A stretch of 64,000 nt of DNA from positions 1-64,000 of the forward strand of contig BJHS01000003.1 of assembly GCA_014193315.1 (NCBI GenBank), in the 5' to 3' direction. Of the stretch, positions 18,114 to 59,740 are shown piece by piece. Positions within the stretch are counted from its first letter, which is position 1; every line of letters begins with the position of its first letter. Origin of the DNA: Verrucomicrobiota bacterium. Lineage in GTDB: Bacteria; Verrucomicrobiota; Verrucomicrobiia; Opitutales; UBA953. The notes beneath the pieces were generated by a model. The model made no database searches. It saw nothing but the letters and a program-made list of their open reading frames with translations, and had not been told where the DNA came from. Both the position numbers and the translations under genes were made by a program.

Positions 18114-21113
18114 ATGAAGACCCTCACCCGCAACCGGCTCGCATGGGCCGCTCTCGCCGTCGCCCTCGTGGCCGGTTCCTTGGTCGCCCAGGATAACGAC
18201 CCGGTCGTCCAGAAGACCCGTATCCTCGGAGAGGCCATCAAGGCCCGGGAGGATGGCAACCTGCAGGTCGCCCTAGAGAAGTACGAGCAGCTCCTCCAGC
18301 TCGACCCCAAGGACGAAGCCGCCAACGAAGGCAAGCTGAGCGTCAAGGCCACCTTGGCCGAAGCCGATGCCCAGAAGGCCCGCGTCGCCGCCGCCCAGAA
18401 GCCCGCCACCTTGCTCGATGCCGTCGCCGTTGAGCAGCAGAACATCTACGCCGAGGTCGAACGCGCCATCGCCGCCGCCCGCCAAGAGGCCGCCGCCGGC
18501 AACCACAAGCGGGCCCTCGAGATTCTCGACGGCGCCAACAGCTACCTGCCGAACAACACCGCCGCCCAGAAGGTTCGCGACGCTATCGCCATCGCCCGTC
18601 AGGAAATCAACCTCCGCAAGGAAGCCGGGGACCAAGGTCCTGACCAGGTCGCCCGCGAGGAAGTCGTCCGCCTGGCCAAGGCCAATGCCGCCAAGATCGA
18701 CAAGGGTGCCGAGCTGATCGACCAAGCCGAAAGCCTCGCCCGCAAGGGTGCGTCGGCCGAGCTCGATGAAGCGGTCAAGTTGCTCGACGAGGCCTCCAAG
18801 GAGTTGCCCGTCAACATCGCCGCCAAGCCGTACCGCGACCGCATCAAGCAGGTCAAGGGCTACATCTTCTCCCAGCGCGCCTTCATAGCGTTCGAAGACC
18901 GCGAGATGAACAAGGCCGACTCCCATATCCGCGACTACGAGAAGCTCTTCGGCGTGGATGACGCCTCCGCGAAGAAGCTGCGCCTGGAGTTCCTCAAGAA
19001 GAAGGCCGACCCGTCCTTCCGGAGCGTCGACGAAATCTCCCCCGGCCTCCGCGCCAAGGACGCCAAGGTCGAGGAACTCCTCGTCAAGGGCCGCGCCCGT
19101 TACCTTTACGGCGACTACCAGGGCGCCCTTGAGGCCTACCGCGAAATCCTCCAGTACCAGCCGAACAATGCCGAGTCGAAGGCCTACCAGGTCCGCATCC
19201 GCCAGATCCTCTCCGAGAACTCCGGCACTTGGAATCGTGGCGTCACTAAGGGCAAGCTCCTCGAGCTCCTCGACGAAAGCTGGAAGCTCCCCGAGGTCTT
19301 CAGCAAGGAAGTCGGCATCGACAAGCCCCGCACCGATCTAGACCCGGTCGTGGAGAAGCTCAACTCCATCACCGTCCCCGAAATCAACATCCGCGACCTG
19401 CCGTTCAACCGCGCCATCGACCAGTTGATCATCGTCTCCCAGTCCTACGACAAGGATTCCAAGGGCGTGAACATGGTCGTCATCGACCCGGACCGCAAGA
19501 ATCCCTCGGTGAACATCACCCTGCGTAATGTCCAGTTGGGCAAGGCCCTCGACATCATTACCAAGCAGGTGAACTTCACGTACAACATCAACCAAGGCAT
19601 CATTGAGATTCGCCCAGACTCCGGCTCCAATGACCTGGAAACCGAATTCTTCCCGCTCTCCACGTCGGCCGTCATCAAGATGACCGGTATCGGCAGCGCG
19701 GCCAACGCCGCCCCGTCCGCCGGTGCCGGCGCCAGCCCCTTCCCGACCGGTGCCCCGGCCGCGGGTGGCAGCGAAGGTCAGCGCCCCGAGGAAGTCGCCA
19801 TCAAGAACTTCTTCGTCCGTTCGGGCGTCGTCTTCGAGTCGACCACCGGCAGCACGCTTGCTTATGACGGCACGAACCTGATCGTCACCCAGAACCGCAA
19901 GAACCTCGATCGCGTCCGCAACATCCTGCGCCGCTATTCGGACATCAAGCAGGTGCACATCGAGGCCAAGTTCATAGAAGTCTCCGAGGCCTCCCTCAAT
20001 GAACTCTCCACCAATTGGCGCCTCTCCAAGGTCGTCGGCACAAACACCATCATCCGTGCCCAGTCTGGCCTCCGTTCGGTGAACGACGTGTTCGGTTCCA
20101 CTTCCGTCTCGAATAATGGCAACATCGCCAGCCAGACGACCCAGACCACGGTCGTGAACGGCGTTCCGGTCCAATCCACCACTTCCGTCAACACGGTCGT
20201 CCCCAACTCCCCGCCCAAGATCAACACGGGTAACTTCGGTGGCGACTCCGCGAACTTCGGCGGTTACGACAACTCCACCACCAAGCCCGGCCCCGGGATC
20301 TTCGATGGTCGGATCGGCACCCTCGGCTCCTACGACCTCAGCATCTTCCTCCGCGCCTTGGAGCAGAACAGCGGCACCGACCTCATGTCCGCCCCGAGCC
20401 TCACCGTCCTGGACAGCAAGACGGCCATCATCAAGGTCGCCCAGCTCCTCCGTTACCCCGAGTCCTACGGCGACACCCAGTCCAACGTCGGCACCTCCGG
20501 CGGTAACAACAACGGCGGCGGCTCGGCCGGCGTCACCATCACCGCCGGAACCCCTCAGGACTTCACCGTCCAGGAAGTCGGCGTGACCCTTGAAGTCACC
20601 CCGACCGTCGGTGCCGACGACTCCATCGCCCTCAACCTCAAGCCGAAGGTGGTCGAGTTCGAAGGCTTCGTGGAATACGGCGGTACCTCCGTCGCGATCT
20701 CGGGTTCCACGACCGTCACCATCCCCTCGGGCTTCTTCCAGCCGATCTTCACCACCCGCGAAGTCTCGACCGACGTCACCGTCTTCGACGGCGCCACGGT
20801 CGTTATCGGCGGCCTGACCCGCGAGGAAGTCAAGACGGTCAACGACAAGGTCCCGGTCCTCGGCGACATCCCGTTCCTCGGCACGGCCTTCCGTTCCAGC
20901 GGCAAGACCACCACCAAGCGCAACCTGATGATCTTCGTGACCGCCAACCTGGTCTCGCCGGGCGGCGCCACCCTCCGCAGCTCCCACTCGGGCATGCGCG
21001 CTGGTTCGACCTTCTCCAACCCGGTCATCATCTCCCCGGGCGGCGCGGTCTACCGCGAGCCGGTTGAAGCGGCCACGACCGTCAATTCCGCCCCGTCGAC
21101 GGACGCCAAGTAA
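18114..21113 (+). CDS. Type II/IV secretin with TPR-rich N-terminus (Amuc_1098-like)
   Basis: 999 residues. A signal peptide (AWAALAVALVAGSLVAQ) is followed by about 330 residues of helical TPR-like repeats (EKYEQLLQLDPKDEAANEGK, YQGALEAYREILQYQPNNAE). Next come an STN-type domain, ring-building N domains (NLIVTQNRKNLDRVRNILRR) and the secretin core. The core contains LGSYDLSIFLRALEQNSGT and ends with VIGGLTREEVKTVNDKVPVL and GDIPFLGTAFRS, the secretin signature. It forms the outer-membrane pore of a type IV pilus or secretion system. A strong terminator follows, which closes the operon. No pilin or motor ATPase genes are in the window. Confidence 0.92.
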   Translation: MKTLTRNRLAWAALAVALVAGSLVAQDNDPVVQKTRILGEAIKAREDGNLQVALEKYEQLLQLDPKDEAANEGKLSVKATLAEADAQKARVAAAQKPATLLDAVAVEQQNIYAEVERAIAAARQEAAAGNHKRALEILDGANSYLPNNTAAQKVRDAIAIARQEINLRKEAGDQGPDQVAREEVVRLAKANAAKIDKGAELIDQAESLARKGASAELDEAVKLLDEASKELPVNIAAKPYRDRIKQVKGYIFSQRAFIAFEDREMNKADSHIRDYEKLFGVDDASAKKLRLEFLKKKADPSFRSVDEISPGLRAKDAKVEELLVKGRARYLYGDYQGALEAYREILQYQPNNAESKAYQVRIRQILSENSGTWNRGVTKGKLLELLDESWKLPEVFSKEVGIDKPRTDLDPVVEKLNSITVPEINIRDLPFNRAIDQLIIVSQSYDKDSKGVNMVVIDPDRKNPSVNITLRNVQLGKALDIITKQVNFTYNINQGIIEIRPDSGSNDLETEFFPLSTSAVIKMTGIGSAANAAPSAGAGASPFPTGAPAAGGSEGQRPEEVAIKNFFVRSGVVFESTTGSTLAYDGTNLIVTQNRKNLDRVRNILRRYSDIKQVHIEAKFIEVSEASLNELSTNWRLSKVVGTNTIIRAQSGLRSVNDVFGSTSVSNNGNIASQTTQTTVVNGVPVQSTTSVNTVVPNSPPKINTGNFGGDSANFGGYDNSTTKPGPGIFDGRIGTLGSYDLSIFLRALEQNSGTDLMSAPSLTVLDSKTAIIKVAQLLRYPESYGDTQSNVGTSGGNNNGGGSAGVTITAGTPQDFTVQEVGVTLEVTPTVGADDSIALNLKPKVVEFEGFVEYGGTSVAISGSTTVTIPSGFFQPIFTTREVSTDVTVFDGATVVIGGLTREEVKTVNDKVPVLGDIPFLGTAFRSSGKTTTKRNLMIFVTANLVSPGGATLRSSHSGMRAGSTFSNPVIISPGGAVYREPVEAATTVNSAPSTDAK

Positions 21114-22218: not shown

Positions 22219-22251
22219 AAAAAAAGGCCCGCCGTTGAGGGCGGGCCTGGT
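22219..22251. terminator. Bidirectional terminator between convergent genes
   Basis: AGGCCCGCC (22225-22233) pairs with GGCGGGCCT (22240-22248), loop GTTGAG. A run of seven A's on the left serves as the T tract on the minus strand; GGTTT follows on the right. Confidence 0.8.
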
Positions 22252-22271: not shown

Positions 22272-23144
22272 TTACTTCTTGGCTTCGACCTTCTTGGCTT
22301 CGACGGCCTTGGGGGCCTCGACGGCCTTGGGGGCCTCGACGCCCTTGGCGGCTTCGGCACCGGCCTGCTGCTGGGCATCGGCGAAGAGGCTGGAAACCTG
22401 ATTCACTTCTTCCTGGTTGAGGAGGAAGACGAACTTGGACTCGAGGACTTCGACTTCGTAGTTGTGGGTGATCGAGTAGCCGACGGACTTCGCCATCTCT
22501 TCGTTGCCCTTCTCGAGGAGACCGCGGGTCTCGTCGAGCTGCTTCTGGATGTTCTTCTTCTGCTCTTCATCCTTGGAGTTGGCGAGGAGCTGGGTCAGTT
22601 GGACGAAGGCGTCGCGGCGGGCCTGGAGGACCTTGGCGAACTGGTCGAACTGGACGACGAACTCGAAGCCGCGGATGTCGGCGGTGTGGAGGAGGTTCTT
22701 GCCGTCGCGCTTGACCAGCTGCTCGTCCTTGAAGTCCTTCGCGGCCCGGGCCTTGGTCGCTTCCTCGTCGGAGACGACGGCGAAGAGACGCAGGGCGGTG
22801 TTGATGAAGGTCGTCTGGCGGTTGGCGAGCACCGGGACATTGAAGTTCCAGACCTTGGCGAAGACGCCGTCCTTATCGTTGAAGTCCTTGACCTCGGACT
22901 CGCCGACCTTCGCGAGCGCTTCGCGCTCGACGGTGGTCAGGGCCGACTGGATGCGGGCCTGCAGCTGCTGGATGCGCTGGAACTGCTGGAGCAGGGTGCC
23001 GTATTCCTGCTGGAAGCGGGCGAGGGAGACAGGGTTCGCGATCGTCAGGACGACGCGGCCCAGGTTGTTACCGAGCGGGATGAGCTCGATGACCGGACCC
23101 TTGGGGGCTTCGGCGGTGGCGGGGGCTTCGGTGGCGGTGGTCAT
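22272..23144 (-). CDS. Protein A of a paralogous pair with an internal duplication
   Basis: 290 residues, not recognised. Two similar halves can be seen. Each has a short beta-type start (about 20-45 and 150-170), a coiled-coil stretch (RIQQLQARIQSALTTVEREA and QLLANSKDEEQKKNIQKQLD) and a closing motif (VWNFNVPVLANRQTTFI... and MAKSVGYSITHNYEVEVLES). The C-terminus is a Val-Glu-Ala-Pro-Lys repeat. The next gene upstream (295 residues) has the same two-unit plan. Unlike its paralogue this protein shows no signal peptide, so it may be cytoplasmic. The two genes lie 48 bases apart and probably form one transcript. Function unknown. Confidence 0.7.
   Translation of the reverse strand: MTTATEAPATAEAPKGPVIELIPLGNNLGRVVLTIANPVSLARFQQEYGTLLQQFQRIQQLQARIQSALTTVEREALAKVGESEVKDFNDKDGVFAKVWNFNVPVLANRQTTFINTALRLFAVVSDEEATKARAAKDFKDEQLVKRDGKNLLHTADIRGFEFVVQFDQFAKVLQARRDAFVQLTQLLANSKDEEQKKNIQKQLDETRGLLEKGNEEMAKSVGYSITHNYEVEVLESKFVFLLNQEEVNQVSSLFADAQQQAGAEAAKGVEAPKAVEAPKAVEAKKVEAKK
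22301..22348 (-). repeat. 18-base tandem repeat coding for EAPKAV
   Basis: CGACGGCCTTGGGGGCCT occurs twice exactly in tandem (22301-22318, 22319-22336) with a third, partial copy after it. In the minus-strand gene it encodes a repeated Glu-Ala-Pro-Lys-Ala-Val unit near the C-terminus. Such repeats can change in copy number by slippage. Confidence 0.8.
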
Positions 23145-23192
23145 GGTGTTTGGGTGGGTGGAGTTTGGGTGGGGGTGTATGGGGTGGGAAAA

Positions 23193-24080
23193 TTACTTGG
23201 TGGCCGGGGCGTCCTTCTTGGCCTCGCCGTCCTTCTTGGATTCGGCGGCCTTATCGAGGTTCTTCTTCTCGTCGTCGCTCAGGAGGGTGTAGAGCTTGGC
23301 TTCGGCCGTCTGGAGGTTGAACTCGGTCGGGATGTCGTAACCGTGGGTCTTCTTGAATTCCCCGGTGGCGGTGTCGACGTCGCCCTTGGTCTTGGCGATG
23401 GCTTCCTCGATCTTCTTCTTGTCTTCGTCCTTGGTGAAGCGGGGCTGGGCGTCGACGAGCTGCTGGAGGCCGCGCTTGGCCTCGAGGATGCGCTGCAGTT
23501 GCAGCTTGAAGGCCTCGACTTCGGCGGCACCGGAGACGGACTCCCGAATGAGGAACTTCTTGTCGCCGGCGTTGAGGACGGACTCGGCCTTGAAGCCGGC
23601 GGAGGCGGCGAGCTTGATGTAGTCCTCGTTGGTGAGGTTGGTCAGGACGACGACCTTGGTTGGGACGATCACGTACTGGCGGGTCAGGTCGAAGCCGTAG
23701 GTCTTGGCCATGGTCTCGTTGTCGGCCTTGAGGCGGTTGAACTTGGTCTCGAGCTCACGGATGCGGGCTTCGCGCTCCGGGGTGGTCAGGGCCAGCTCGG
23801 CCAGCTGCTTGACCTGGGCGACCTGCTGCTGCTCCTGGCCGATGGTCTGGACGTCGTTCTGGAAGTTGGCGAAGGCCTGGGGGTCACCGATGATTTTGAC
23901 GAGGACGAAGGTCTTGCCGTCGGAGGTCAGGGTTTCGACCTGGACGGTCTTGTTGGCGTCGGCGGGCTTACCGGCCTCGGCGGCCTTGGGGGCGACCGGA
24001 ACGGCAGCGGCGGCGGGTTTGGCGTCTTCGGCGAAGGCGGTGAGGGCCAGCAGGGACAGGAGCAGCGGAGTAGTCTTCAT
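23193..24080 (-). CDS. Protein B of the paralogous pair, exported
   Basis: 295 residues from the ATG at 24080; upstream codons would hide the signal peptide (MKTTPLLLSLLALTAFA). After an Ala/Pro/Lys-rich linker come two similar units: VLVKIIGDPQAFANFQNDVQ, LALTTPEREARIRELETKFN and MAKTYGFDLTRQYVIVPTKV form the first; AEVEAFKLQLQRILEAKRGL, TKDEDKKKIEEAIAKTKGDV and FKKTHGYDIPTEFNLQTAEA the second. Both units resemble those of the neighbour. The tail is Lys/Glu/Ala-rich. Periplasmic location is likely; function unknown. Confidence 0.72.
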   Translation of the reverse strand: MKTTPLLLSLLALTAFAEDAKPAAAAVPVAPKAAEAGKPADANKTVQVETLTSDGKTFVLVKIIGDPQAFANFQNDVQTIGQEQQQVAQVKQLAELALTTPEREARIRELETKFNRLKADNETMAKTYGFDLTRQYVIVPTKVVVLTNLTNEDYIKLAASAGFKAESVLNAGDKKFLIRESVSGAAEVEAFKLQLQRILEAKRGLQQLVDAQPRFTKDEDKKKIEEAIAKTKGDVDTATGEFKKTHGYDIPTEFNLQTAEAKLYTLLSDDEKKNLDKAAESKKDGEAKKDAPATK

Positions 24081-24157: not shown

Positions 24158-24964
24158 TTATTTACGAGGGTTCTGGAGCGCCCGCCCGATGATTTCCGGG
24201 AAGTCCAACTGGTCGGCTTGGCGCTGCAAAGCTTCGTCCGCGAGGATCGCCCGAACCTTCGGGTGCTCCATTAACTTTCCTAAGTCCTTGTTATTAAGTA
24301 ACTCGCGAACGCCCTTATCTTCCCAGGCCTGATAGACGCTTGGGTGAGCCGCCAGGGAGCGGATTTCCGGCATGGCCATCAGGCGCCGGCGAGCCTCGGG
24401 ATCTGTCAAAAGCATTTTTACACTCAGTATGGTCCGGTTTTGACGCTCTGGCAGGGGGGTCCAGCGCTTGAGCCAGCCCGCCGAAGGGGCCTGGGCGAGC
24501 TCGTCGCGCGTGAGCACCCAGCGGCTCTTTCGGGCCAGCTCCGGCGTCTCCACCAATTCGATCACGGCAGCGATTGTAGCCAAGCCCAGTATGATCAAAA
24601 CGAAGTACAGCATCCCCGACCAGCAGCCCACCAAGGCGCCGAGTATCGGGCTCTCGGCTTCGGTCTGGCCTTCCGGTAATCGGCCCACCCGCCAGCAGAC
24701 CGCGTAGAGCAGCAAGCCGGCTAAAAGGGATAGCACCAGAAGGCCGGCGGCACCCCGCAGCAACCAAGGGAAGGGGGTGCCATGGAGGGTCAGGTGCCCT
24801 AAGTCCGGGCCGAACCAAGCCCCGAGGAGGCACCCCGCCGCCAAAGAGAAGGGCCCGGACAGTAGCCGCACCGGGCCGCGCCGAAAGCCGCGCCAGCCTC
24901 CCCGCGCCATGAGGCTAAGGAGCAGCAGACCCGCCAGCCAAAGGGTGAGGGACAGGTCGGGCAT
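24158..24964 (-). CDS. CvpA-like membrane protein
   Basis: 268 residues. Four hydrophobic segments (LTLWLAGLLLLSLMARGGWR, LLSGPFSLAAGCLLGAWF, LLRGAAGLLVLSLLAGLLLY and LGALVGCWSGMLYFVLIILG) match the CvpA/colicin V production family layout. A hydrophilic C-terminal half of about 130 residues follows, ending in DFPEIIGRALQNPRK; this is longer than in E. coli CvpA. It is encoded 7 bases downstream of the kinase-like gene, in the same direction. Role unknown; CvpA proteins are linked to envelope integrity. Confidence 0.75.
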   Translation of the reverse strand: MPDLSLTLWLAGLLLLSLMARGGWRGFRRGPVRLLSGPFSLAAGCLLGAWFGPDLGHLTLHGTPFPWLLRGAAGLLVLSLLAGLLLYAVCWRVGRLPEGQTEAESPILGALVGCWSGMLYFVLIILGLATIAAVIELVETPELARKSRWVLTRDELAQAPSAGWLKRWTPLPERQNRTILSVKMLLTDPEARRRLMAMPEIRSLAAHPSVYQAWEDKGVRELLNNKDLGKLMEHPKVRAILADEALQRQADQLDFPEIIGRALQNPRK

Positions 24965-27426: not shown

Positions 27427-28323
27427 ATGCCCGCCGAACCCTATCACCTCGCCAGTCAAGGGACGAGCCTCGGGGTTTTCGGCCAAGCCGAGGTCGAAGC
27501 AGGCTTGGCGACGGGGCGTTTCGCGGTGACCGTGCTTTCCTGGCGAGAAGGCGAAGCCGCCTGGGTGCCGCTCGCGAGTCGGGTCGAGTTTGGTGCCGCG
27601 CGTTCGGCGTATGTCTCGCTCCAGCCGGTGACCTCGCCCGACTTCGAGCTGGCTGCCGGGATTTTCGCCAAGGGATTCCTTCGGCGGTGGATCCGCACCT
27701 GGGTCGGCGTGCTGTTTCGGCCGTCCGCGACCTTCCGTCCCTTCAGCGAGGGCGGGCGAATCGGGCGGGCTTTGATCTGGTTATTGCTGGCCGCCGCGCT
27801 CGCGGTCCCCGGGCTTTTCTTCTTCGGTCAATCGGGCTTGACCGCTTTCCTGCGGGCGATCGGCAAAGCCGTGGAGGTGCGGACCGAAGCGCTCAACCTG
27901 ACCTACCTCGGCAAGGCGTTGTTCTGCTTGCCGTTGTGGGTGGCGGGTCTCGCCGCTTTGCTCACGCTCGCGTTGCACGTCCTCCTCCGCGTCTTCGGCG
28001 GTGGCGCCGCCGGTTGGCGCACGACCTTCCGCGTCATCGCCTACCTCGGAGGGGCGTGGCTGCTCGGCTCCGTCGCGTGGTTCCTCGTCGCCAGTCGACT
28101 GAACTCGGGGGGCCTCGCGAGCGGCGGGCCGCCGTACCTCGCGACTTTCCTCGCGGGCCTGACTTTCTTCGTCTTGCTGGCTCGTGCCTTGGCGCTGGCC
28201 CACGTTGATCCCGGCTGGAAGCCCGCGCTGGCCATGGTCGTCATGCTCGTCCTGGGATGCTGCACGGGCTGCCTTGCCATGGTGGCCGCGCTCGTGCCGT
28301 TCTTCACGCCACTGGGCGGTTGA
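27427..28323 (+). CDS. GYF-like domain membrane protein 1
   Basis: 298 residues. The N-terminus (YHLASQGTSLGVFGQAEVEA, then LSWREGEAAWVPLA) is a GYF_2/DUF4339-type domain of about 50 residues. A Yip1-like membrane part with about five hydrophobic segments follows. The next gene has the same layout, so the two arose by duplication. It starts 13 bases after tRNA-Arg and heads a likely four-gene operon. Function unknown. Confidence 0.72.
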   Translation: MPAEPYHLASQGTSLGVFGQAEVEAGLATGRFAVTVLSWREGEAAWVPLASRVEFGAARSAYVSLQPVTSPDFELAAGIFAKGFLRRWIRTWVGVLFRPSATFRPFSEGGRIGRALIWLLLAAALAVPGLFFFGQSGLTAFLRAIGKAVEVRTEALNLTYLGKALFCLPLWVAGLAALLTLALHVLLRVFGGGAAGWRTTFRVIAYLGGAWLLGSVAWFLVASRLNSGGLASGGPPYLATFLAGLTFFVLLARALALAHVDPGWKPALAMVVMLVLGCCTGCLAMVAALVPFFTPLGG

Positions 28324-28361
28324 GGTTTGCAGGCCCCGCGCGTCCAACCTACAAAAGCAGG

Positions 28362-29306
28362 ATGGAAGAAACCCGCCAGATCCACCTCGCCCGCAAGACC
28401 GTCCAACTCGGGGTTTTCGACCCGGAAGCAGTCACCGTCGGTTTGGCCAATGGCCGTTTCCAGACGACCGACCTCGCTTGGACCAACGGTATGGCCGCTT
28501 GGAAGCCCTTGGGCGAATGGCCCGAGTTCGCGGCCGTCGCGAGCGCTGCGGTGCCGCCTTTGCCGGCGGATGTGGCCGATGCGGCGGACGCCGCACCCTT
28601 GGCTTGGGAACAAGCCAAGGGCGTTTCCTCCGCTTGGGTTTCCTTTAAGGAAATCGTGCTTCGACCCAGCCCGACCTTGGCGGCCTCGCGCCTTCAGTTG
28701 GGGTCGGTGGTGCCGTTGGCTTGGGTCTTGGCCGCGATCTCGGGGATTTTCCTCATCGTGGGTGGGAGCCTCCATGCCGACGCCAACGCTGCGTTCAGTC
28801 ATCAGCAAGGCCTGCAGATCATGGAGGCCATTAATCGGTCGCCGGGAGAGATGAAATGGCTGGCGCCCTTGGCGGATTCGCTCCAGCAAACCTCGCCAGC
28901 GACGTTTACGGAGTTGTTGCTCAAGGCCTCGGCCTTTGCCCTGCTCGTTCCCTTGCTCAACCTGCTGCTGGGCTGCTGGGTCTGGGTGGGTCTCCGTTTA
29001 CTTGGCACCTTCGGGGTGGCCGACTTTCGGCAGGTCGACTTCGAACGCACCGTGGCAGCCAGTGTGCTGGGCCTGGCGGCGATCGGCTTGCTCTGCGCCC
29101 CGCTTAATCTCTTCCCCTCGTCGGTCAACGCCTTGCTCGGCTTGCCCATCTCGATTGCGATGGCGGTCGTGGTCTCCCGCTCGATCGGGGCGGCGCTACG
29201 GCTCAACCCATGGGCGGTGTTGGCCTCGAGTCTCCTCCTCAATGTGACCGTCTGCTGTCTGGGGTGTTTCTGTGTGTTCGGCGTCTTTGCGCTTATCCTT
29301 GGCTGA
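28362..29306 (+). CDS. GYF-like domain membrane protein 2
   Basis: 314 residues from the ATG at 28362. The N-terminal GYF_2-like domain (IHLARKTVQLGVFDPEAVTV ... LAWTNGMAAWKPLGEW) is clearly related to that of the preceding protein. A middle linker (about 60-85) and four or more membrane segments follow (VVPLAWVLAAISGIFLIVGG, AFALLVPLLNLLLGCWVWVG). The segment between the first two membrane helices is amphipathic. Probable operon with both neighbours. Confidence 0.72.
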   Translation: MEETRQIHLARKTVQLGVFDPEAVTVGLANGRFQTTDLAWTNGMAAWKPLGEWPEFAAVASAAVPPLPADVADAADAAPLAWEQAKGVSSAWVSFKEIVLRPSPTLAASRLQLGSVVPLAWVLAAISGIFLIVGGSLHADANAAFSHQQGLQIMEAINRSPGEMKWLAPLADSLQQTSPATFTELLLKASAFALLVPLLNLLLGCWVWVGLRLLGTFGVADFRQVDFERTVAASVLGLAAIGLLCAPLNLFPSSVNALLGLPISIAMAVVVSRSIGAALRLNPWAVLASSLLLNVTVCCLGCFCVFGVFALILG

Positions 29307-56378: not shown

Positions 56379-56461
56379 GGCCCGATGAATGTCGGGATGG
56401 ACCGCCCCTGCAAGCGCCTTCCCGCCCGCGCCCCGCATTTGTTAGAAGTCCCCACTTGACC

Positions 56462-56475
56462 ACCCTTCCAAGGGT
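56462..56475. promoter_or_regulatory. Short inverted repeat ahead of carB
   Basis: ACCCTT-CC-AAGGGT, an exact 6-base inverted repeat, directly after a TTGACC at 56456 that could serve as a -35 box. It ends 22 bases before the carB ATG. A convincing -10 is lacking. It might be an operator or simple chance. Confidence 0.3.
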
Positions 56476-56497
56476 CGCTGACAGTCCGCGGAACACC

Positions 56498-59740
<3,243 letters not shown>

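Follow-up and report, generated by a model that had tools for sequence, protein, structure and literature searches.

What are two neighbouring proteins of no recognised family, one with a signal peptide and one without, and why would a bacterium keep them side by side? The question is raised by a stretch of 64,000 nucleotides from a Verrucomicrobiota bacterium (contig BJHS01000003.1; hereafter the window), in which an initial annotation, made without database searches and naming no strand, had placed two such open reading frames. Both exist at the coordinates then given and lie on the minus strand, head to tail, with gene A first, gene B second and 48 bases between them. The locus comprises the following features.

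23193..24080, minus strand: gene A, a predicted exported two-unit protein of 295 aa (ORF and translation, family orthologues)
24030..24080, minus strand: predicted signal peptide of A, residues 1-17, MKTTPLLLSLLALTAFA (hydrophobic N-terminus, 2.57; cleavage point placed by eye)
23604..23954, minus strand: A unit 1, residues 43-159, hairpin helices 67-96 and 100-128 (unit profile match 23607-23945; AlphaFold2 model)
23250..23594, minus strand: A unit 2, residues 163-277, hairpin helices 185-214 and 218-246 (unit profile match 23250-23594; model)
22272..23144, minus strand: gene B, a two-unit protein of 290 aa without signal peptide (ORF and translation; N-terminus conserved in orthologues)
22743..23105, minus strand: B unit 1, residues 14-134, hairpin helices 38-67 and 71-99 (unit profile match 22746-23090; model)
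22389..22733, minus strand: B unit 2, residues 138-252, hairpin helices 160-189 and 193-221 (unit profile match 22392-22733; model)
22272..22388, minus strand: Ala/Lys/Pro-rich tail of B (translation; pLDDT below 50 from residue 268)
22225..22248, minus strand: intrinsic-terminator-like stem directly after B (9 pairs, 8 of them GC, and a T run); with 2 such sites found in the stretch against 3.5 expected in shuffles, the argument is its placement after B
24158..24964, minus strand: CvpA-like gene directly upstream of A (Colicin_V, scoring 28.7 bits where the cut-off is 29.3)

Homology between A and B extends over most of either protein (26% over 242 aa, E=4e-20). In searches of their own genome they match each other (E ~3e-19 and 3e-18), and neither query yielded a third copy at E up to 10. 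Judged by these alignments, the two are paralogues. The four units of the window were compared in shuffle tests (1000 shuffles per pair), and five of the six pairs beat all 1000 shuffles (z 4.7 to 14.3): A1-B1 at z 13.6, A2-B2 at 14.3, A1-B2 and A2-B1 at 7.4 each, and A1-A2 at 4.7 (0/1000 shuffles, 3/1000 block shuffles). B1-B2 had no direct likeness (z 0.1, reached by 419/1000 shuffles), and the repeat within B is therefore established only via relatives, transitively. In hhalign, both B1 and B2 connected with single-unit proteins and with the units found in relatives, at probabilities of 83-99%. All 21 pairs of seven unit classes scored 83-99.6% except A1-A2 (42%), A2-B1 (60%) and B1-B2 (2.8%), and reversed-profile controls among these classes reached 3.5% at most. 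The repeat is plain in some relatives (halves of L050, z 21.5; ON-OC, 99.6% in hhalign). Moreover, single-unit proteins with a signal peptide occur elsewhere in the phylum (L053, L054, L098, L102 and L103), so the unit is a real module.

All four window units matched the unit profile at E 9e-37 to 6e-29, values inflated by the fact that 4 of the 18 profile rows (alignment A3) are these very units. The profile marks tested in them, namely the Phe at the start of helix 1, N-V-Q, N-N-x-x-M-x-K-x-Y-G-[FY] and [DE]-E-E, were all present. A tree built from 40 units placed the N-units of both proteins together (97/98) and their C-units in one group (92/85); the unit was therefore probably doubled before A and B split. 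The two units of L105, a protein from another family of genomes, join each other at 99/96, and this protein looks to have doubled on its own. Nine forks of the tree are open, L056_N, L056_C, L104B_C and L132_S sit on long branches, and the deeper order is unsure. A and B almost certainly form one protein family built of a repeated unit of about 110 residues. The four related units in tandem proposed by the initial annotation thus withstood the profile alignment of the halves that it had named as its refuting test, B1 and B2 being related through their relatives.

Each unit consists of a strand hairpin, a helical hairpin of about 60 residues, a G-F/Y turn, a long strand and a short acidic helix. 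AlphaFold2 models of B and A, computed as monomers from alignments of 17 and 16 sequences and carrying no information on the oligomer, had a mean pLDDT of 81.4 and 77.7 and a pTM of 0.67 and 0.64, respectively. In these models the unit has two strands, two helices of about 30 residues, one long strand and one helix, with the hairpins and strands confident; around unit 1 of B the block means were ~87-96 pLDDT from residue 21 on. Conserved residues gather at the hairpin foot and the turn: N-V-Q, Q-R, N-N-x-x-M-x-K-x-Y-G-[FY]-S-L-x-R-x-Y and [DE]-E-E, together with the Phe at the start of helix 1 (94%). The closing motif with a Gly-Phe/Tyr turn to which attention had been drawn earlier is, as K-x-Y-G-[FY], among the best conserved parts of the unit. 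The hairpin tips vary in length, and a Lys/Arg just inside helix 2 is conserved all the same. The shared ALTTVEREA/ALTTPEREA stretch (ALTTxERxA) forms the turn, or tip, of the first hairpin in the models of B and A. Both proteins end in Ala/Lys/Pro tails.

Searches of Pfam, NCBIfam, PHROGs and PDB sequences gave no convincing match for A, B or their relatives. The best sub-threshold values were PriC at 0.00016 for L107 (22.0 against 23.3 bits), CASP_C at 0.00048 for one unit, a PHROG at 0.00075, Arc_PepC_II at 0.00076 for B (20.4 against 29.9 bits) and 0.047 in the PDB, all isolated and below the curated cut-offs where cut-offs are shown. Foldseek returned no match at E 0.001 or better in the PDB or, for the B model only, in the viral library BFVD. 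VIA-align produced middling matches, mostly to single hairpins of many unrelated proteins (Z up to 8.6 for B and 7.1 for A), and none of the papers listed in literature searches names such a protein family in its title or the opening of its abstract. The earlier impression of no known family was borne out in Pfam, NCBIfam, PHROGs and the PDB; by these searches, the family is new to the libraries searched.

Could the resemblance among the units, or the fold, be accounted for more simply? The lack of direct similarity between B1 and B2 would fit a likeness of shared coiled-coil composition, without common descent of the units, but the similarity extends over the strands and the G-F/Y turn outside the helices, it survives block shuffles and reversed-profile controls, and proteins with one unit exist. 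The profile comparisons and the unit tree effectively refute this reading, which keeps next to no probability in our view. Somewhat less improbable, though still very unlikely, is that A and B are divergent members of the OmpH/Skp family (PF03938) that have lost recognisable sequence similarity. By our reading the order of elements is similar (strand, helical hairpin, G-[FY] turn, strand, acidic helix). The VIA-align matches listed for A include Skp, as 1sg2_C (Z 7.0, rmsd 7.8, 92 aligned) and 1u2m (Z 6.4), and also one chain from 8gl8 (Z 6.0), a structure with SkpA among its components. B1 also gave z 3.1 against the genome's own OmpH (reached by 14/1000 shuffles and 89/1000 block shuffles). 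However, these VIA-align values are tied with those of unrelated hairpins, and the other five units tested against OmpH gave z 1.4 or less. The hhalign probabilities against 28 OmpH proteins of the same order, chosen from 30 loci, were 0.4-11.7%, with reversed controls at 0.5-6.8%, and Pfam scans of the family gave no PF03938 match. Skp is absent among the best 50 VIA-align matches listed for B, which excludes nothing. As to periplasmic location, the signal peptide present in A is missing from B (judged by hydrophobicity only). The ompH/skp gene usually lies beside bamA and lpxD; A and B do not, and the genome has its canonical OmpH elsewhere, at G000:C8, flanked by ORFs that we read from their translations as BamA-like and LpxD-like. 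Membership, suggested by element order and unsupported by hhalign and the shuffles, was rejected.

Skp is nevertheless the nearest known design, by analogy. A and B would share with it helical hairpin arms on a beta part (predicted here), the signal peptide of A and a similar order of elements, but differ in having two hairpins per chain, a signal-less paralogue, a location far from bamA/lpxD and no detected sequence relation. One account of Skp (PMC9820271) describes a monomer made of a beta association domain with helical tentacles, and likens Skp to prefoldin.

The surroundings of A and B were considered as a clue to function. The pair is flanked by the CvpA-like gene, upstream of which follows one more minus-strand ORF, and by a 5'-3' exonuclease. 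Within the genus the order is what we take to be FolE2-like, kinase-like, CvpA-like, A, B, exonuclease and secretin. The CvpA-like neighbour is also present across the genus and at L120 (genus g165). The flanking genes are kept in the genus and partly in L120, and they are different in g2 and in other families; at L052, in genus g2, the flanks differ, yet A and B still adjoin. With flanks varying between genera and families and no functional link, the neighbourhood was rejected as a clue. In three genomes, the immediate neighbours of single- or double-unit genes encode large surface-type proteins with Calx-beta/PKD or PATR repeats (L054:32-8938, L055:9508-14679 and L124:30-1694); these too were dropped as a clue, other loci being without them. 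The secretin (PF00263), with TPR-like repeats, lies at 18114-21113 (plus strand) of the window, and a homologue stands beside the pair in most same-genus loci with flank. Elsewhere in the window, two adjoining membrane proteins of similar look (27427-28323 and 28257-29306, plus strand) each have a short N-terminal module presumably like GYF; a related genome has three of this cluster in a row (L049:2989-5745).

The claim that one protein has a signal peptide and the other none was upheld by N-terminal hydrophobicity and is consistent over the relatives: members split into signal-bearing (2.18 or more) and signal-less (1.98 or less), and the B orthologues have a common non-hydrophobic start. 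Among 58 family locus-strands, 43 have A then B, 11 a signal-bearing gene only, 4 a signal-less gene only and none B then A; several of these are the same genome twice or near-identical, and some loci are cut by contig ends. A is thus very probably exported and B cytoplasmic, as an inside/outside pair. Since one of the two carries an export signal and the other does not, and genomes of the family keep one or both, the cell may need the protein on both sides of the inner membrane. Exceptions are G137 and G246, which have only signal-less forms, and G594 (84% complete), which has only B.

Of the 79 genomes in the window's family, 71 contain units and 60 give at least four unit matches; among the good family genomes (at least 90% complete, at most 5% contaminated), units are present in 36/36. 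Across the class, query B hit 10/286 genomes and query A 12/286, one of the 12 being false; in a phylum sample the unit profile matched 24/387 genomes, 16 strongly and 8 weakly. Conservation across Opitutae therefore holds only in part: it applies within the family, and elsewhere the occurrence is sporadic. Two matches were rejected: that of G128 (L058), to a protein that we take to be SCO1-like, consists of signal-peptide likeness only, and the weak one of G414 (L113) covers only a helix of a protein reading like OmpH. A scan for close relatives of B across genome contigs gave 11 loci, ten of them titled Opitutae, Opitutales, Opitutia, Opitutus, Verrucomicrobia or Verrucomicrobiota. The eleventh, contig CALPIW020000019.1 (L011), is titled Polynucleobacter meluiroseus and is probably misbinned, holding an Opitutae A/B locus with its usual neighbours. 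L106-L112, distant proteins from other Verrucomicrobiota families (f97, f99, f103 and f127), may be a sister family. Like the A/B family they have a signal peptide and two stretches each weakly matching the unit profile; unlike it, they are matched without the first strands, in many cases only from a point within the first helix onwards (E for whole proteins 2e-13 to 4e-8). Most of them end in R-x-Y-x-[YF] ... [TS]-x-[YF]-L-[KR], and those of them scanned against Pfam gave no family name.

How do relatives that lack the pair manage? Eleven family genomes have 1 to 3 unit matches. Five are single-gene genomes, 95-98% complete: G150, G183, G603 and G605 (genus g2) and G601 (g306). Of the other six, G598, G611, G640 and G646 have loci truncated at contig ends, G596 shows a single fragment of 36 positions, and in G594 only B is present. 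A sixth genome with signal-bearing genes only, G602, has two of them on different contigs (L133 and L163). These six genomes, chosen for having only signal-bearing genes at complete loci, contribute seven genes, which represent few lineages and not seven independent events. All seven encode a signal peptide (in L163 of the lipoprotein type, by our reading) followed by an in-frame ATG where B proteins begin, as in L050, which reads ...SQNDNNNT-M-SNTTSKLDFIEQNG against M-SEQSKLDYIEQNG in B of L138, and in L146, which reads ...STPDKS-M-TTASQ.

The region around the internal ATG ranked 6-11 of 261-291 positions by folding energy in 7/7 genes, i.e. within the least structured 2-4% of the gene. The A content of the 20 bases before it was 0.50-0.60 in six genes and 0.25 in L146, and A stood at -3 in 5/7 internal ATGs against 0/7 first ATGs. 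Six true B starts, used as positive control, ranked 1 to 31 of 229 to 262. As one of them ranked only 31/229 and in three genes the first ATG was less open than the internal one (-6.4 against 0.0 in L050, -5.2 against 0.0 in L134, -9.2 against -3.5 in L163), openness is a soft criterion. Control A genes of two-gene genomes had a Met between signal and unit in 0/32 cases, and the same zone lay on the structured side (median percentile 0.88; 1/32 reaching 0.04); four near-copies and one fragment were left out of this set, and some of those remaining are near-identical. The A genes of G611 and G646, outside the 32, likewise have no Met there. A Fisher value of 7.9e-8 (7/0 versus 0/31 A genes) ignores kinship and was not relied on. 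In Bacteroidetes lacking Shine-Dalgarno (SD) sequences, initiation is described as tuned by mRNA structure and A at -3 (PMC6847099). Given this rule and the scarcity of SD-like 4-mers before the first ATG (only 4/53 window ORFs), the internal ATG is a plausible start. In the single-unit genes L102:1459-1908 and L103:1414-1881 (f92), an in-frame Met also stands just after the signal peptide; dual start was rejected for them because the RNA there is structured (ranks 126/141 and 111/146), so a Met at that place is not always a start. The gene order around L102/L103 is shared by three genomes, with a 2-oxoacid dehydrogenase-like gene on either side.

On balance, the sequence features slightly favour the single genes being dual-start genes, with an exported long form and a cytoplasmic short form. 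Genes whose two start codons give exported and cytoplasmic forms are a general phenomenon. The present genes would resemble them in having a signal on the long form and, for the short form, an internal ATG that lies in an unstructured leader, but here both forms are deduced from sequence and close relatives code them by separate paralogues.

Codon use in both A and B is of the kind seen in very highly expressed genes. Measured against EF-Tu and EF-G of the same genome, CAI was 0.822 for B and 0.803 for A, ranks 1 and 2 of 53 window ORFs, with a median of 0.415 and with EF-Tu and EF-G themselves at 0.749 and 0.742. Against resampled codons for the same protein, B (z 11.5) and A (z 9.3) came third and fourth, after two ORFs of far greater length. 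Judged by effective codon number, the strongest bias belonged to B in 8 of the 11 pair loci examined, and L050 and L051, both single genes, also ranked first; the bias was weaker at L048 (ranks 2 and 3 of 15), L120 (3 and 6 of 12) and L052 (9 and 14 of 16). With codon use like that of EF-Tu and EF-G, A and B are probably abundant. Among other window genes, the secretin ORF at 18114-21113 had the strongest bias given its own protein (z 15.8, first of 53), and the ORFs at 263-649 and 56456-59740 (plus strand) had a strong bias towards EF-Tu/EF-G (0.765 and 0.684).

A binding or holding role is suggested by the combination of probable abundance, occurrence in both compartments, hairpin arms and the lack of an evident catalytic motif. 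We tentatively propose that the job of the family is needed in both cytoplasm and periplasm, and that the two units would together form one beta body from which two hairpin arms protrude. The protein may then work as an abundant clamp on either side of the inner membrane, holding unfolded or assembling partners in the manner of a holdase or bridging structures, in the way that Skp or prefoldin employ the hairpin arms on their beta bodies. Relatives without the pair would meet the same need by one gene with two start codons. Prefoldin is a hexamer of alpha and beta subunits with hairpin arms on a double beta barrel; it is likened here by design only, for the arms on a beta body in the cytoplasm that we imagine for B, and to our knowledge bacteria usually lack it. 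The clamp idea relies on the arrangement alone, because Foldseek gave no match at E 0.001 or better.

Two parts of this proposal have to be weighed against other explanations. The internal ATG could be an unused relic, left when an old B gene acquired a signal peptide by fusion. A leader rich in A would lack structure in any case, and most single genes are closer to B, so that the internal start may be merely inherited: L050 is 56.4, 55.9 and 57.1% identical to g2 B proteins and 48.4, 47.3 and 47.1% to A proteins of the same genomes, and L146 is 54.8 and 58.8% identical to two g305 B proteins and 35.9-47.3% to four g305 A proteins. L146 is equally near both members of the L138 pair (38.5 and 38.8%), and L163 is not clearly nearer B than A (bits 154-168 versus 91-154). 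Against a relic, the signal regions of L050 and L051 have diverged (12/42 bases identical) while the eight codons before the internal ATG are identical (24/24; L050 and L134, 21/24), the corresponding identities with L133 being left out as its alignment seems out of register. The state also recurs in the lipoprotein-type gene L163 and in another genus (L146). We consider a relic a real but lesser prospect than dual initiation. For the function, the units could instead polymerise or tether layers as a structural scaffold, of the envelope in the periplasm and of an internal skeleton, or bound to nucleoid or ribosome, in the cytoplasm, with high abundance serving structure and not folding. Very high predicted expression, the more than one doubling of units and the Ala/Lys/Pro tails of both proteins all agree with this, but the family scans revealed no membrane-anchor or peptidoglycan-binding domain and the neighbourhood offers no consistent envelope pointer. 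Such a scaffold is possible and, in our estimate, neither more nor less doubtful than the clamp, which we put first at equal standing.

We return, then, to a holdase-like, two-armed clamp as the preferred, still doubtful reading of function. That a very highly expressed two-armed protein is kept in cytoplasm and periplasm in two interchangeable ways, by a paralogue pair or by a two-start gene, appears to us evenly balanced between right and wrong. The proposal as a whole, joining the family, the inside/outside pair, the dual starts and the clamp, is the best explanation we can offer, though the chances lie somewhat against all of it being correct. If the codon signal is right, A and B would be among the most abundant proteins of a small-genome Opitutae group, with no counterpart among the named families of the libraries searched. 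A need for the protein in both compartments would point to some general task, such as keeping proteins or assemblies apart or holding structure, and not to a step in a pathway. The switch between gene pair and two-start gene would be a natural experiment, in which dual localisation in bacteria is directly testable.
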